Source of the DNA: Xanthobacter sp. YC-JY1
GTDB lineage: Bacteria; Pseudomonadota; Alphaproteobacteria; Rhizobiales; Xanthobacteraceae
Length of the DNA: 64,000 bases
Assembly (NCBI RefSeq): GCF_021730305.1
Contig: NZ_CP032674.1
Location: 2,713,001 to 2,777,000, forward strand
Direction of reading: 5' to 3'
Part shown: piece by piece, positions 44,324 to 49,944 of the stretch
Position numbering within the stretch: position 1 is the stretch's first letter
Layout of the letters: every line of letters begins with the position of its first letter
The notes under the pieces: model-generated
Told to the model about the DNA's origin: nothing
What the model saw: the letters and a program-made list of their open reading frames with translations, nothing else
Databases searched by the model: none
Program-made: the position numbers and the translations under genes

Positions 44324-44535
44324 TGAGCTATATCCTCTCTGTCGGCCGGGCCCCGGCTCCGCAAGGCGCTGTGTTCGCACCTGCGGATTCGCGGAAGCCA
44401 GCTTGATGCTTTACCGGGCAGACACCTCCACCTCTGAAACCACATATATCCGTGGCGGAGGGGTCGGGTTCCTTAGCATGTTTCCAACCCGGCCTTCGAT
44501 GCGACCTTGAGACCTCCCGGAATGGCAGATTCAGC

Positions 44536-45174
44536 GTGACCCTTGTCGTCAAAATCGGTGGAAGCCTGACGCGGGGCGCCCCGCCCCGGCTCCTGCTCGA
44601 ACGCCTCGCGGGCCGGAAGGGGCTGGTGCTCGTGCCGGGGGGCGGAGCGCTGGCCGATCAGGTTCGCGTGATGCAGCCGCAGATTGGACTTTCCGATGGG
44701 GCAGCCCACCGCATGGCGATCCTCGCCATGGAGCAGATGGCCTATGCCTTCCTCGACATGGCTCCCCGCCTGCGCCCCGCGCGGACGCCGGCCGAGCTGA
44801 TGTCCGCCGCGGCTGACGGCGCGGCCCTTTGGCTTCCCGCCACCATAGCCCTCGACGCCCCGGACATTCCCCAAAGCTGGGACGTGACCTCCGACAGTCT
44901 CGCGCTCTGGCTCGCGGCGCGGCTGGCGGCCGACCGGCTGGTTCTGATAAAGGCGCCGGGCGTTCAAGTGCCGCGGCACGGCGACCGCGCGGCGGACCTT
45001 GCGGCCTGGACTGCGACCGGTCTCGTGGATGCGGCTTTTGCGACCATGGCACGGGACTATTCTGGCGATATTGTCCTCGTCCCCGCCGACGACGGGGCGC
45101 TGATGGAGCTGGCGCTCGAACCGCCCGCGCCGCAGAGCATCGAGGAAACAAGAGAAGGCCCGCGCCGATCATGA
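44536..45174 (+). CDS. mfnE: MfnE-like amino acid kinase family protein
   Basis: This 212-residue protein starts at GTG 44536 with VTLVVKIGGSLTRG and has LVLVPGGGALADQVR, both nucleotide-binding blocks of the amino acid kinase fold. VLIKAPGV and DVTSDSLALWLAARL complete it. In archaea the homologous MfnE phosphorylates 5-(aminomethyl)-3-furanmethanol phosphate to the diphosphate used for methanofuran. The next genes (flavoprotein, DHPS-like, DUF447, MfnB) support this role. The stop overlaps the next start by ATGA. Confidence 0.82.
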   Translation: MTLVVKIGGSLTRGAPPRLLLERLAGRKGLVLVPGGGALADQVRVMQPQIGLSDGAAHRMAILAMEQMAYAFLDMAPRLRPARTPAELMSAAADGAALWLPATIALDAPDIPQSWDVTSDSLALWLAARLAADRLVLIKAPGVQVPRHGDRAADLAAWTATGLVDAAFATMARDYSGDIVLVPADDGALMELALEPPAPQSIEETREGPRRS

Positions 45175-45749
45175 GCGAGACCCGTTCCAGCAAGAAGCCG
45201 CCCCGCTGGGCGTGGGCCCTCACCGGCTCCGGGCACTATTTCACCGAGAGCATCGAGATCATCCGCGAGCTTCAGGACGTGGACCTGTTCATCTCGGACG
45301 CCGCGGACGAAGTGCTGCGCATGTACAAACAGGACAAGGAACCCCTGCCCGCCCAGACGCAGGTGTTCCGCGACAATTCAGCGTCTTCCGCCTCCATCGG
45401 GCGCTTCTATCACGGCGAGTATCACACCCTCGTCGTCTCGCCCGCCTCCTCCAATACGGTGGCGAAGGCGGTGCACGGCATTTCGGACACGCTCGTCACC
45501 AACTGCTTCGCCCAGGCCGGCAAGTGCCGGGTGGCCTGCATCGTGTTCGCCTGCGACAGCCAGCCGGAGATGATCACCATGGCGCCGGAAGGCCCGGTGC
45601 CGGTCTATCCGCGCCGCATCGATCTTGAGAACACCGCGAAGCTCAAGACCTTCGAGGCGACCGTGGTGGCCGAGACGCTGGAGGAACTGCGCCTCGCCGT
45701 CGCCCGCCGCCGTGCCGAGCTTGCCACCCTCTATCCCGTCCCGGCCTGA
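45171..45749 (+). CDS. Archaeal-type flavoprotein, candidate dihydromethanopterin reductase (DmrB/AfpA-like)
   Basis: This 192-residue protein has a flavoprotein fold beginning WAWALTGSGHYFTESIEIIR. The SPASSNTVAKAVHGISDTL block is typical of the flavodoxin-like phosphopantothenoylcysteine-decarboxylase/AfpA family, followed by CxxxC-type residues in NCFAQAGKCRVAC. DmrB proteins of this family reduce dihydromethanopterin to H4MPT in methylotrophs and methanogens. Because the operon otherwise concerns methanopterin and methanofuran, this is the best role, but not proven. The cysteines could hold an iron-sulfur cluster. ATGA overlap with the preceding gene. Confidence 0.75.
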   Translation: MSETRSSKKPPRWAWALTGSGHYFTESIEIIRELQDVDLFISDAADEVLRMYKQDKEPLPAQTQVFRDNSASSASIGRFYHGEYHTLVVSPASSNTVAKAVHGISDTLVTNCFAQAGKCRVACIVFACDSQPEMITMAPEGPVPVYPRRIDLENTAKLKTFEATVVAETLEELRLAVARRRAELATLYPVPA

Positions 45750-45752
45750 GCC

Positions 45753-47174
45753 ATGGCCGAGCGCGTCGCCCTCGTCACCGGCTCGCTGGCCGAGCCCCGC
45801 ATCCGCCGCATCGCGGAGGAGCTGGCGGACGGCACGCTAGATCCGGTGGTGGTGAACATCGGGGTGAAGGTCGCGGCGCTCATGACCGCAGAGATCGTGG
45901 AGCGCCGCCTCAAGCTGCCCGAAGGCACGGACAAGGTGCTGATGCCCGGACGCTTCCGGGGCGACCTTCAGCGCCTCGCCGCGCGCTTCGGCCTGCCATT
46001 CGAGCGGGGGCCGGAAGAGGCGGCGGACCTGCCCACCTATTTCGGCCGAGGCAAGGGCCGCAACGTGCCCCTCGACCGCCACGACGTGACGCTCTTCGCC
46101 GAGATCGTGGACGCGACCCGCCTGTCCGTTCCGCAATTGTTGGAGCGCGCCCGCTTCCTGAGGGGCGAGGGCGCGGACGTGATCGACCTCGGCGCCCTGC
46201 CGGACCAGCCCTTCCCGCATCTTGAGGACGCCATCGCCGCCCTCAAGGCCGAGGGCTTCAAGGTGAGCGTGGACAGCTTCGACCCGGAGGAGCTGCGTCG
46301 CGGCACCCGCGCCGGGGCGGACTTTCTGCTCAGCCTCAACGAGACCAACCTCACCATCGCCGATGAAGGCCCGGCCGTGCCCGTGCTGGTGCCGGCGCAG
46401 GCGGGAGACCTCGCCTCCCTCGTCCGCGCCATCGAAGCGTGCGAGGCGGCGGGACGGCCCTTCCTCGCCGATCCGATCCTCGATCCCATCCATCTCGGCT
46501 TCACCGCGTCTCTGGTGCGCTATGCGGAGCTGCGGCGGCTGAAGCCGGACATTCCCATCCTCATGGGCATCGGCAACGTCACCGAGCTGACGGATGCCGA
46601 TACCACCGGCATGAATGCGCTGCTGATGGGCATCATCTCCGAGCTGGGCCTCAATGCCGTCCTCGCGGTGCAGGTGAGCCCGCATTGCCGCACGGCGGTG
46701 CGCGAGTTCGACCGGGCGCGGCGGGAATATTACGCCGCGCGGGAGGCCGGCGCCCTCCCCCAGGGCTTCGGCGGCGGGCTGATGGCCCTGCGCGACCGGC
46801 GCCCCTGGTCCACCACGCCCGAGGAGGTAGCCCGGCTCGCGTCCACGGTGGCCGACCGCAATTTCCGCATCGAGGTGACGGAAGAGGGGATCCACGTCTA
46901 CAACCGGGATGGCCACCATGTGGCGGCAAACCCCTTCGCCCTCTTCCCCCACCTCAAGGTGGAGGACGATGGCGCCCACGCCTTCTATCTCGGCGTGGAG
47001 ACTGCGCGGGCGGAGATCGCCCACCACCTCGGCAAGCGCTATGCGCAGGACGAGCCCTTGAAATGGGGCGTCGCGGGCGAGACCGGCGGCAGCGCCGACG
47101 AGGCCCATCGGTTGACATTCAAGGAAGCGGGCTCGACGCTTTCTGCCGCGAAGAAGAAAGGCGAAAGCGCGTGA
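45753..47174 (+). CDS. Archaeal-type dihydropteroate-synthase-like protein (DUF6513)
   Basis: This 473-residue protein has an N-terminal domain of about 150 residues beginning ALVTGSLAEPRIRRIAEEL. A TIM-barrel like dihydropteroate synthase follows (GADVIDLGALPDQPFP, FKVSVDSFDPEELRRG, ADFLLSLNETN, FLADPILDPIH). A C-terminal part ends ...LGKRYAQDEPLKWG. In methanogens this family is proposed to condense a pterin with a p-aminobenzoate ribosyl unit for methanopterin. Its place between the flavoprotein and DUF447 genes fits that. The stop overlaps the next start (GTGA). Confidence 0.85.
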   Translation: MAERVALVTGSLAEPRIRRIAEELADGTLDPVVVNIGVKVAALMTAEIVERRLKLPEGTDKVLMPGRFRGDLQRLAARFGLPFERGPEEAADLPTYFGRGKGRNVPLDRHDVTLFAEIVDATRLSVPQLLERARFLRGEGADVIDLGALPDQPFPHLEDAIAALKAEGFKVSVDSFDPEELRRGTRAGADFLLSLNETNLTIADEGPAVPVLVPAQAGDLASLVRAIEACEAAGRPFLADPILDPIHLGFTASLVRYAELRRLKPDIPILMGIGNVTELTDADTTGMNALLMGIISELGLNAVLAVQVSPHCRTAVREFDRARREYYAAREAGALPQGFGGGLMALRDRRPWSTTPEEVARLASTVADRNFRIEVTEEGIHVYNRDGHHVAANPFALFPHLKVEDDGAHAFYLGVETARAEIAHHLGKRYAQDEPLKWGVAGETGGSADEAHRLTFKEAGSTLSAAKKKGESA

Positions 47175-47740
47175 TCCGGGAGACCATCGTCACCACCGTC
47201 TCGGCCGCCGGAGAGGCGCACATCGCGCCCATGGGCGCGACCGTGGTGGAGGGCGGCTATCTGCTCCAGCCCTTCCGCCCCTCCCGCACGCTGGACAACC
47301 TGGCGGCGGCGCGCAGCTGCGTGGTGAACTTCTCCGATGATGCCCGCATCTTCGCGGGCTGCATCACTGGCCGCCACCGCTCCTGGCCCACCGTTCCCGC
47401 CACCCTTCTCAAGGGCGCAGCACGCCTCGCCGACTGCCTCGCCCATGACGAGGTGGAAGTGGCGCGGATGGAGGACGACCCCACCCGTCCCCGCTTCTTC
47501 TGCCGCACCATCCACCGCGAGACCCACGCCCCCTTCCTCGGGCTGAACCGTGCCGTGGCCGCTGTGCTGGAAGGCGCCATTCTCGTCTCGCGCCTGCACA
47601 TGATGGACCCGGACCGGGTGGACCGGGAGATGAACTATCTCTCCATCGCCATCGACAAGACCGCCGGCCCGGCGGAGCGCGAGGCATGGGACTGGCTGTG
47701 CGAGACCATCGCCGACCACCGGGCGCGGGCGGCCTCATGA
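47171..47740 (+). CDS. DUF447 family flavin-binding-like protein
   Basis: This 189-residue protein starts at GTG 47171 with VIRETIVTTVSAAGEAHIAPMG and contains PSRTLDNLAAARSCVVNFSD. Both are typical of DUF447, a split-barrel flavin-reductase-like family. DUF447 genes recur in archaeal and methylotroph methanopterin/methanofuran clusters, though the reaction is not established. The mfnB start overlaps its stop by ATGA, and the conserved REMNYLSIAIDKTAGPAE tail is intact. Confidence 0.88.
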   Translation: MIRETIVTTVSAAGEAHIAPMGATVVEGGYLLQPFRPSRTLDNLAAARSCVVNFSDDARIFAGCITGRHRSWPTVPATLLKGAARLADCLAHDEVEVARMEDDPTRPRFFCRTIHRETHAPFLGLNRAVAAVLEGAILVSRLHMMDPDRVDREMNYLSIAIDKTAGPAEREAWDWLCETIADHRARAAS

Positions 47741-48456
47741 CGGCGCACGTTCCCGCCCGGCCGGGCCTCCTCGCATCGGTGGCGACCCTCGACGAGATGC
47801 GCACGGCGCTTGCCGTCGGCGTCGATATCCTGGACCTCAAGAACCCCTCCGAGGGCGCGCTGGGCGCCTGGGCGCCGCAGGCGCTGGTGGAGGCCGTGGC
47901 CGTGTGGCGCGCCGCCGGAGCACCGGGCAACCTCAGCGCCACGGTGGGTGACCATCCGCTGGAGCCGGACGTGCTGCGCACCGCGGCCGAGCGCACCGCC
48001 GCCACCGGCGTGCCGCTGGTGAAGATCGGCTTTGCCCTCGGCGATGAGGCCGCCCTGGCGGCGGTGCTCGACGCCCTTCGCCCCGTCGCCCGCGAGACGC
48101 GCCTGATCGCCGTGCTCTTCGCCGATCAGGCGCCGGACCTTGCCGCCGTGCCGCTGTTCGCCGCCGGCGGCTTCCACGGCGTGATGCTGGACACGGCGGA
48201 CAAGGCGGCTGGCGGCCTGCTCGCCCACCTGCCGGTGGAAACCCTCGCCCGCTTTGTCTCGGCCGCCCGCGCGGAAGGGCTGCTGACCGGCCTCGCGGGC
48301 TCGTTGAAGATGGCGGATATCGCCCCGCTCGCGGCGCTGCGGCCGCATTATCTCGGCTTCCGCGGTGCGCTCTGCGCCGAGGGGCGGACCAGCGCCCTCG
48401 ATCCGGTACGTCTGGCCGCCGTGCGCGATACGCTGGCGGGGCGCATCCTCGCCTGA
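47737..48456 (+). CDS. mfnB: (5-formylfuran-3-yl)methyl phosphate synthase MfnB
   Basis: This 239-residue TIM-barrel enzyme makes the furan ring of methanofuran from two glyceraldehyde-3-phosphate molecules. The two catalytic lysines expected from the archaeal enzyme are in VDILDLKNPSEGALGA (Lys35) and VMLDTADKAAGGLL (Lys156). LVKIGFALGD and HYLGFRGALCAEGRTS complete the phosphate site. It ends the five-gene operon and is convergent with the degenerate aminotransferase, 6 bp away. Confidence 0.92.
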   Translation: MTAHVPARPGLLASVATLDEMRTALAVGVDILDLKNPSEGALGAWAPQALVEAVAVWRAAGAPGNLSATVGDHPLEPDVLRTAAERTAATGVPLVKIGFALGDEAALAAVLDALRPVARETRLIAVLFADQAPDLAAVPLFAAGGFHGVMLDTADKAAGGLLAHLPVETLARFVSAARAEGLLTGLAGSLKMADIAPLAALRPHYLGFRGALCAEGRTSALDPVRLAAVRDTLAGRILA

Positions 48457-48462
48457 GGCCGG

Positions 48463-49533
48463 TCAGGCGGGCGGGAACGCCGCCACCACCGCGTCGAGAA
48501 TATCGCCCGCCGCTGCAATCTCTGCCTCGGTGACGGTCAGCGGCGGCAGCACAGCGAGCACGTTGCCGAGCGGCCGGGTGAGCAGCCCCTGCCCGGCCAA
48601 TGCCTCCGCCAGCGGCGCGGCCGGCCCGACGCAAACCAGCCCCTGAACGAGGCCGGTGCCCGTGGTATCGGTGAACAGGTCCGGCCGGCGCCAGCGCAGG
48701 GTGGCGAGCCGGTCCTCCAGCTTCCAGCCCATCTCCTGCACTCGCGTCTCGAAGCCGGGAGCGAAGGCGGCCGATAGGGCCAGCAGCAGCCCGGCGGCTG
48801 CATTCTCGTCCAGCAAAGGCAGGCCGGAGGGCAGGCTGCGGGCGAGACGGGCGCTCAGCACCAATGCCGAAGCGCCCTCCCCGCCTTCGGCCTCGCCCGG
48901 CAGCCCGTCGATCACCATCACATCCGGCGCCACGCCGCGCCATTCGTGGGCGAAGGCCATGCCCGTGCGCCCGAGGCCGGAATCGGTCTCGTCGAACATC
49001 AGCACCACGCCATACTCATCTGCCGCCTGCCGTGCCGCGGCGAGGAGGAAGCCCGGCAGGAAGCGCAGGCCGGCATCGATGGAGGCGGGCACAAGCAGCA
49101 GCGCCGCCACGTTCGGCCCCATGGCGGCCTCGATGGCCGCTTCGTCCTCCGGGATACGCCGCACGCCCGCATCCTGCGCCAGCGCCGGGGGAAGCCGCGG
49201 GTCGTCGGAGACGACAACGATCTCCCGCCGCTTGGGCCGTCCCGCCGTGCGGTGGTGGAGACGGATGGTCTCGACCGCCGCGCGCCAGGCCGTCGCGCGA
49301 TCAGCAAAGAAACGGGCCACGTCGCCGAAGGAATGGTCCGTCAGGAGGGCGGCACATCTGGCGGAGGCGGGAGCGCCCTCCCCTTCGCTGGCATCCCCTT
49401 CGATAATCCGCGCGCGATCGAAGCGGACGGCACCCGAGAAATCGAGCACCGGCGCCGCAACGGCGGCTGCGTCGTCGGGCGGCGCTTCAACACAGGAAGC
49501 ATCTGGGGCGATTGCGGACACGCGCTCCTCCAT
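48463..49533 (-). CDS. Degenerate class III aminotransferase-like protein lacking the PLP lysine
   Basis: This 356-residue protein aligns with the second half of class III aminotransferases: LMFDETDSGLGRTGMAFAHE matches the DEVQTGxGRTG block. Where the PLP lysine should follow (PDIxxxAKGLGGG), it reads VAPDVMVIDGLPGEAEGG, so the lysine is absent. The EPxQGEGG block is also missing and the N-terminus is short. It cannot act as a normal transaminase. The reading frame is intact with good codon use, so it may have another role, such as a partner or scaffold. Confidence 0.72.
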   Translation of the reverse strand: MEERVSAIAPDASCVEAPPDDAAAVAAPVLDFSGAVRFDRARIIEGDASEGEGAPASARCAALLTDHSFGDVARFFADRATAWRAAVETIRLHHRTAGRPKRREIVVVSDDPRLPPALAQDAGVRRIPEDEAAIEAAMGPNVAALLLVPASIDAGLRFLPGFLLAAARQAADEYGVVLMFDETDSGLGRTGMAFAHEWRGVAPDVMVIDGLPGEAEGGEGASALVLSARLARSLPSGLPLLDENAAAGLLLALSAAFAPGFETRVQEMGWKLEDRLATLRWRRPDLFTDTTGTGLVQGLVCVGPAAPLAEALAGQGLLTRPLGNVLAVLPPLTVTEAEIAAAGDILDAVVAAFPPA

Positions 49534-49563: not shown

Positions 49564-49944
49564 TCAGTCGTACTTGATGTAGGAAAAGCGCAGATCGTGC
49601 TGCGGCGTGCCCTCAAGCGGCTCATCCTCGCCGGCACCGGGCTGCCACTGCACCACCTCCTCGATCTTCTTCGCAAGTGCGAGATCGCGCACGGTGATGC
49701 CCTTGGCGTCGTGGGACTGGAGCCGCACCTCCACCCAGGCATAGGAGGCGGTGAGGTCGGGATGGTGCCACGCCGCCTCCGCGAGATGGCCGACGGTGTT
49801 TATGACCATCAGCGTGCCCTTCCAGCTGTTGGTCTTGTAGGTGCGCTTGATCCAGCCGTCCTCGTAGCGCCAGTGGGGCAGCTCGGCATCGAGGTGGGCG
49901 GCCACCTCCTCCGCAGGGAAGGTCTTCTTGCGATCGACGGTCAT
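49564..49944 (-). CDS. phhB: Pterin-4a-carbinolamine dehydratase
   Basis: This 126-residue protein has the PCD signature AAWHHPDLTASYAWVEVRL, with the two active-site histidines, a later His in LQSHDAKGITVRD and the final Asp. It dehydrates 4a-hydroxy-tetrahydrobiopterin and homologues can act in other pterin pathways. ATG 49944 begins MTVDRKKTFPAEEV. No phenylalanine hydroxylase lies nearby. The nearest pterin-related genes are the methanopterin operon, 1.1 kb away on the other strand, so a pterin role there is possible. Confidence 0.93.
   Translation of the reverse strand: MTVDRKKTFPAEEVAAHLDAELPHWRYEDGWIKRTYKTNSWKGTLMVINTVGHLAEAAWHHPDLTASYAWVEVRLQSHDAKGITVRDLALAKKIEEVVQWQPGAGEDEPLEGTPQHDLRFSYIKYD

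Follow-up and report, generated by a model that had tools for sequence, protein, structure and literature searches.

A five-gene cofactor operon of Xanthobacter sp. YC-JY1 and a proposed pterin-branch role for its DUF447 protein

The operon and the cofactor pathways of the genome

We identified a five-gene operon in Xanthobacter sp. YC-JY1 which is almost certainly a cofactor operon, with genes for the synthesis of methylofuran and tetrahydromethanopterin (H4MPT), and which encodes a protein of the DUF447 family that probably serves the pterin branch of this synthesis. Operon and branch assignment taken together are likewise considered likely. The operon occupies positions 44536-48456 of a stretch of 64,000 nucleotides, here called the window, which corresponds to bases 2,713,001-2,777,000 of a genome consisting of one contig (5,392,410 bases). 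The gene set itself is already known from other bacteria; the branch assignment of DUF447 is what is new here.

The five genes lie on the forward strand. The first encodes an MfnE-like (Orf21-type) kinase of the AA-kinase fold, placed in the methylofuran branch (44536..45174; start GTG, stop TGA; a GTG further upstream in the same frame, at 44452, is a possible alternative start). An ATGA overlap leads to the gene for an AfpA/DmrB-type flavoprotein, a candidate dihydromethanopterin reductase (45171..45749, ATG start), which is followed after a 3-bp gap by the gene for an Orf19-type protein with a DUF6513 and a dihydropteroate-synthase-like (DHPS-like) part (45753..47174, ATG start). The latter gene is joined by a GTGA overlap to the gene for the DUF447 protein, an Orf20-type member of a family that binds flavin mononucleotide (FMN; 47171..47740, GTG start), and this in turn by an ATGA overlap to the gene for MfnB, (5-formylfuran-3-yl)methyl phosphate synthase of the methylofuran branch (47737..48456, ATG start). 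The junctions had been described in an earlier note on this DNA, and sequence and translations confirm them. Gene identities are assigned by homology. Each of the five proteins passes at least one Pfam cut-off (AA_kinase, Flavoprotein, DUF6513, DUF447_N and DUF447_C, and 4HFCP_synth, respectively). The best NCBIfam models (MfnE, dihydromethanopterin reductase/AfpA, the DHPS-like model TIGR00284 and an MfnB-type model) match four of the proteins, all under their curated cut-offs, and no NCBIfam model matched the DUF447 protein.

The missed NCBIfam cut-offs would also suit a remnant, or a part of another pathway, that no longer supports working cofactor synthesis. This is extremely improbable: no direct evidence for it was found, all five reading frames are intact, one-carbon (C1) genes are present in the genome, and all five homologues occur in identical order in six other Xanthobacter loci (L007-L012), so that the arrangement is not due to chance. 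The closest of the seven loci obtained from the named-genome collection is that of Xanthobacter aminoxidans, with 98% identity over DUF447; the seventh, from a Thiotrichaceae genome, carries the DHPS-like gene and DUF447, with MfnB approximately 2.8 kb further on.

In Methylosinus trichosporium OB3b, the five H4MPT islands include orf19-orf20-afpA-orf21-orf22 as well as pcbD-mptG, as given in an excerpt of the published account (PMC3615186). The window holds the same five gene types in a different order (orf21-afpA-orf19-orf20-orf22), linked by short overlaps or the 3-bp gap; orf19 and orf20 of that island are, in our reading, the DHPS-like and the DUF447 gene. With the five gene types together, and with fae, mtdB, mch and fhc in the same genome, the operon is a genuine, conserved and ordinary member of the known bacterial H4MPT/methylofuran cofactor island.

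The earlier note had placed the C1 genes outside the window and had named their absence from the genome as grounds for rejecting a role in cofactor synthesis. A genome-wide search found mch, fae, ftr/fhcD, mtdB, fhc genes and mptG, none of the C1 genes being in the window: mch (403.6 bits) lies with ftr/fhcD at 5.19 Mb, three fae genes lie at 3.37, 4.06 and 5.37 Mb, and mptG, encoding ribofuranosylaminobenzene 5'-phosphate (RFAP) synthase (152 bits), is found at 2.90 Mb, approximately 0.14 Mb from the operon, in a locus that also carries an ATP-grasp protein and a CitG-like protein. The genes mtdB (Mpt_N), mch, orf5, orf7 and orf9 follow each other in one region with fhc genes alongside. Orf5 is MptN-like (212.5 bits versus a cut-off of 350), Orf7 is weakly MfnD-like (61.8 versus 400), and Orf9 exceeds the cut-off of TIGR03123 (317.3 bits) but not that of MfnF (117.8 versus 520). 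The opposite strand carries fhcC (over cut-off), ftr/fhcD, an amidohydrolase gene read as fhcA, and fhcB (197.8 bits versus 327.8). Because most of the remaining pathway is present in the genome, the operon can be read as a cofactor supply for formaldehyde oxidation, and the role that the earlier note had proposed is supported by the gene families, the C1 genes and the published island.

The kinase matches AA_kinase (6.8e-08) in Pfam and the structure 7qrh (1.7e-14) in the PDB. It is named only MfnE-like since its score with the MfnE equivalog model NF040622 (5.7e-20, 71.9 bits) stays under the cut-off of 300. MfnB matches PF04476 (2.2e-62; 211.2 bits, cut-off 22.4) and scores 237 bits with NF002576, where 297 are required; as the latter cut-off is missed, its membership rests on PF04476 and on two lysines. 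Its alignment with MfnB of Methanocaldococcus jannaschii (MJ1099, 4rc1; 1.4e-20) covers residues 11-217 and places K35 and K156 opposite lysines of MJ1099, in agreement with the claim in the earlier note that both expected catalytic lysines are present; the product in Xanthobacter is predicted from this homology. We take Lys27 to be the second catalytic lysine of MfnB. Lys155 is named as catalytic in an excerpt of PMC11365854, and Orf22 and Orf21 are described as the MfnB and MfnE homologues in the part of PMC8141765 that deals with them.

Branch assignment of the DUF447 protein

The DUF447 protein matches DUF447_N (PF04289; 2.9e-27, 95.3 bits) and DUF447_C (PF20766; 5.8e-19, 68.3 bits), both over cut-off. 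A total of 33 positions do not vary among 25 bacterial DUF447 sequences (seven from Xanthobacter); E4, P20, G22, T40, N43, N126, R127 and E134 belong to them. A profile built from eight DUF447 proteins was run against the PDB and matched 3b5m, 2iml, 2ptf and 2nr4, which belong to the same family, and weakly 2r0x, a possible flavin reductase (E 0.96). According to their PDB titles, three of the four family structures (2ptf, 2iml and 2nr4) contain FMN (riboflavin 5'-phosphate), so that FMN binding is known for relatives of the protein.

To place this family in a pathway, its occurrence was surveyed in 348 Pseudomonadota genomes, evenly drawn and at least 90% complete, and in 14 control genomes. 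Of the 348 genomes, 18 had DUF447, 18 had DUF6513 and 18 had Mch, and a set comparison returned the identical 18. MptG over cut-off was found in 20 genomes and MfnB also in 20, each set covering all 18 DUF447 genomes; G027 and G326, which matched the MptG model TIGR00144 under cut-off, were excluded from the MptG count (22 in all). Among the controls, DUF447 and MptG matched in the same four (M. jannaschii, Haloferax volcanii, Sulfolobus acidocaldarius and Methanosarcina acetivorans). MfnB, Fae and Ftr matched in two, both methanogens, Mch in three (the two methanogens and H. volcanii), and DUF6513 in M. jannaschii and S. acidocaldarius. S. acidocaldarius thus matched DUF447, MptG and DUF6513 and had no match to MfnB, Fae, Ftr or Mch. 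The arylpolyol in the modified folate of S. solfataricus resembles that of methanopterin. This folate is reported to contain 5-(p-aminophenyl)-1,2,3,4-tetrahydroxypentane (a title cited in PMC3261824), and the occurrence of DUF447 and RFAP synthase in S. acidocaldarius, with no match to the furan branch, agrees with that report.

For a comparison of gene neighbourhoods, the DNA around DUF447 (at most 20 kb per stretch, some stretches positioned to include MptG) was taken from 17 other genomes, to which the window was added as the eighteenth. In 17 of the 18, the DHPS-like gene abuts the DUF447 gene or overlaps with it, with gaps of -89 to +6 (the choice of start affects the two longest overlaps); in the exception, G206, approximately 9.4 kb separates the two genes. 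MptG falls within the DUF447 stretch in 6/17 genomes. The DHPS-like protein itself matches PF20123 (DUF6513) over cut-off (5.3e-23), and Pterin_bind (5.2e-04) and DUF4346 under cut-off; it reaches 188.1 bits with TIGR00284 (cut-off 256.65), and its profile matches the structure of Sul3 (7s2l) at 2.6e-05 over residues 125-192 only. It is a candidate for coupling hydroxymethyldihydropterin diphosphate to RFAP. Taken together, these data suggest that the DHPS-like and DUF447 genes fit the pterin branch better than the methylofuran branch.

Several observations weigh against this assignment. The bacterial exceptions are symmetrical and do not choose between branches, MptG occurring without DUF447 in G015 and G159 and MfnB without DUF447 in G168 and G317, so the branch argument depends on two archaeal controls. 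For one of these, H. volcanii, an excerpt of PMC8305020 states that haloarchaea use folate and that the RFAP-synthase homologue is thought unlikely to make RFAP. DUF6513 had no match in H. volcanii or M. acetivorans among the 14 controls. Mirror-tree correlations of DUF447 add little (MtdB 0.86, DHPS 0.85, MptG 0.80, MfnE 0.76, MfnB 0.74), and 3b5m, the closest solved relative of the DUF447 protein, has no FMN in its title. Finally, DUF447 stands directly before MfnB in 6/18 genomes, the window among them; in the other 12, MfnB precedes MfnE (in G004 MfnB is split between contigs, and the G306 stretches gave no MfnE).

This last arrangement, the presence of MfnB in all 18 DUF447 genomes and the transaminase of M. 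extorquens, described as still to be found in an excerpt of PMC8141765, would all suit a role of DUF447 in the methylofuran branch, for example in formation of the aminomethyl group, the bacterial MfnC being still to be found. We consider such a role unlikely, as H. volcanii and S. acidocaldarius match DUF447 but not MfnB or Ftr, and the two MfnB genomes named above do without DUF447. A place in the pterin branch is preferred.

The exceptional genomes also offer observations of their own. The RFAP-synthase-like genes of G015 and G159 (L045:1426-2502 and L046:1429-2610, -) encode proteins with 24-25% identity to MptG of the window genome and adjoin a gene for a Ham1/AAA-domain protein and one for an AAA-domain protein. 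As neither genome has a match to DUF447, DUF6513 or Mch, we read these genes as part of another pathway, possibly another C-riboside one. G168 and G317 have MfnB homologues with no match to Mch, MptG or DUF447; the furan phosphate may have a different use there.

A candidate reaction for the DUF447 protein

All reactions in Xanthobacter sp. YC-JY1, and the substrate of DUF447, are those we infer from homology and gene context. The operon would co-produce enzymes of two cofactor pathways that are used jointly in formaldehyde oxidation. In the methylofuran branch, MfnB would make (5-formylfuran-3-yl)methyl phosphate, which would be transaminated by an enzyme encoded outside the operon, after which the MfnE-like kinase would make the diphosphate. 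In the pterin branch, the DHPS-like protein would couple RFAP, the product of MptG, to the pterin diphosphate, DUF447 would act on the pterin-RFAP product or close to that step, and AfpA/DmrB would reduce dihydro- to tetrahydromethanopterin.

The route from RFAP, a C-riboside, to methanopterin with its deoxyribitol requires a reduction (work of R. H. White). DUF447 is the natural candidate for this reduction, because its family binds FMN, because in the archaeal controls it tracks RFAP synthase and because its gene is coupled to that of the presumed condensing enzyme. The single reaction that we regard as likeliest for DUF447 is a reduction, dependent on FMN, that opens the ribofuranose and yields the 1-deoxyribitol of methanopterin. 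That DUF447 performs the ring opening itself is put forward tentatively. In its widest and equally tentative form, the proposal would make DUF447 the missing FMN-dependent reductase that converts the ribofuranose adduct to the 1-deoxyribitol, for methanopterin and for the modified folate of Sulfolobus, in archaea and bacteria alike, perhaps aided by a carbinolamine-dehydratase-like protein.

A different step of the pterin branch, such as one on the side chain or one that keeps the dihydropterin in its reduced state, is a serious contender, though rated somewhat below an even chance. The same co-occurrence evidence applies to it, and FMN alone does not specify the substrate. A redox gene joined to the DHPS-like gene best fits the step just after condensation, although this is an argument and not data.

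DUF447 could also be thought of as an electron-supplying partner of AfpA/DmrB, in which the ferredoxin-like portion found in the archaeal model is missing. The earlier note had called the flavoprotein merely archaeal; the family stands (PF02441, 2.4e-22), to which a specific identity can be added. Its best PDB match is the DmrB/AfpA chain 3wis (2.5e-50, 173.9 bits), with near full-length homology (residues 8-183 of 192), from which reductase activity of the window protein is predicted; with the DmrB/AfpA model TIGR02699 it reaches 84.5 bits (cut-off 192.45). The source organism of 3wis is given as Paraburkholderia/Burkholderia xenovorans in an excerpt of PMC6193120, which also describes DmrA as nearly confined to alphaproteobacteria and AfpA/DmrB as occurring in beta-proteobacteria. 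An excerpt of PMC5020050 places afpA in most Proteobacteria, with DmrA substituting in Methylobacterium; the window genome has the AfpA type.

Two flavoprotein-type genes within one operon, and the match of the window AfpA to TIGR02700, an archaeal reductase model of which it covers just the flavoprotein part (positions 2-138 of 234), would suit such a partnership. AfpA was detected in 11 of the 18 DUF447 genomes; the other seven gave no AfpA match at E 0.001, and none of their matches to TIGR02700 begins before profile position 131, which leaves the flavoprotein part uncovered. An obligate partnership is thereby ruled out, and a partnership of any kind is highly unlikely. The pterin-branch reductase proposal for DUF447 is retained.

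Searches by title and the start of the abstract found no paper placing DUF447 in the methanopterin pathway, although Kalyuzhnaya 2005 and White 1996 may hold earlier proposals, and, via PDB codes and locus names, no paper on the DUF447 structures. DUF447 is linked with the cannulae of Pyrodictiaceae in an excerpt of PMC13140500.

Neighbouring genes and meaning for the DUF447 family

A pterin-4a-carbinolamine dehydratase-like gene (pcbD-type; 49564..49944, -; PF01329, 8.5e-26) lies 1.1 kb past MfnB on the opposite strand. Such a gene adjoins MptG in 11 of 20 MptG loci; in the window genome it is found near the operon instead, as in L007 and L012, and it was not found within the stretches of L008-L011. 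It probably belongs to the same cofactor system. Between this gene and the operon lies an aminotransferase class III-like gene (48463-49533, -), which was considered as the missing MfnC and rejected: only residues 125-349 match, and among 24 loci it occurs only in the closest relative, L007. In the alignment, its product has no lysine opposite what we take to be the pyridoxal phosphate lysine of 3ruy.

Two further groups of genes were noted elsewhere in the surveyed loci. CitG forms an alpha-ribosyl link. The CitG-like protein (PF01874) whose gene adjoins mptG (L053:11813-12646, +), and which is also found in the H4MPT clusters of four other genomes (L058, L064, L066 and L070), could be what attaches the alpha-ribosyl unit in methanopterin. 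Soon after the fhc genes, radical SAM/SPASM, TENA/THI-4/PQQC and metallo-beta-lactamase-superfamily genes occur (L052:16450-19727, -) which resemble PQQ synthesis genes.

Methanogenesis and bacterial formaldehyde oxidation both use methanopterin as a carrier of one-carbon units, yet for several steps of its synthesis the literature covered assigns no enzyme; an excerpt of a 2011 review counts three known and an estimated seven unknown proteins (PMC3087415). Placement in the pterin branch gives the DUF447 family, which has structures with FMN and no assigned function, a specific candidate reaction that is testable in a tractable methylotroph. If the assignment is true, a confirmed DUF447 step could serve as a target to limit methanogenesis.

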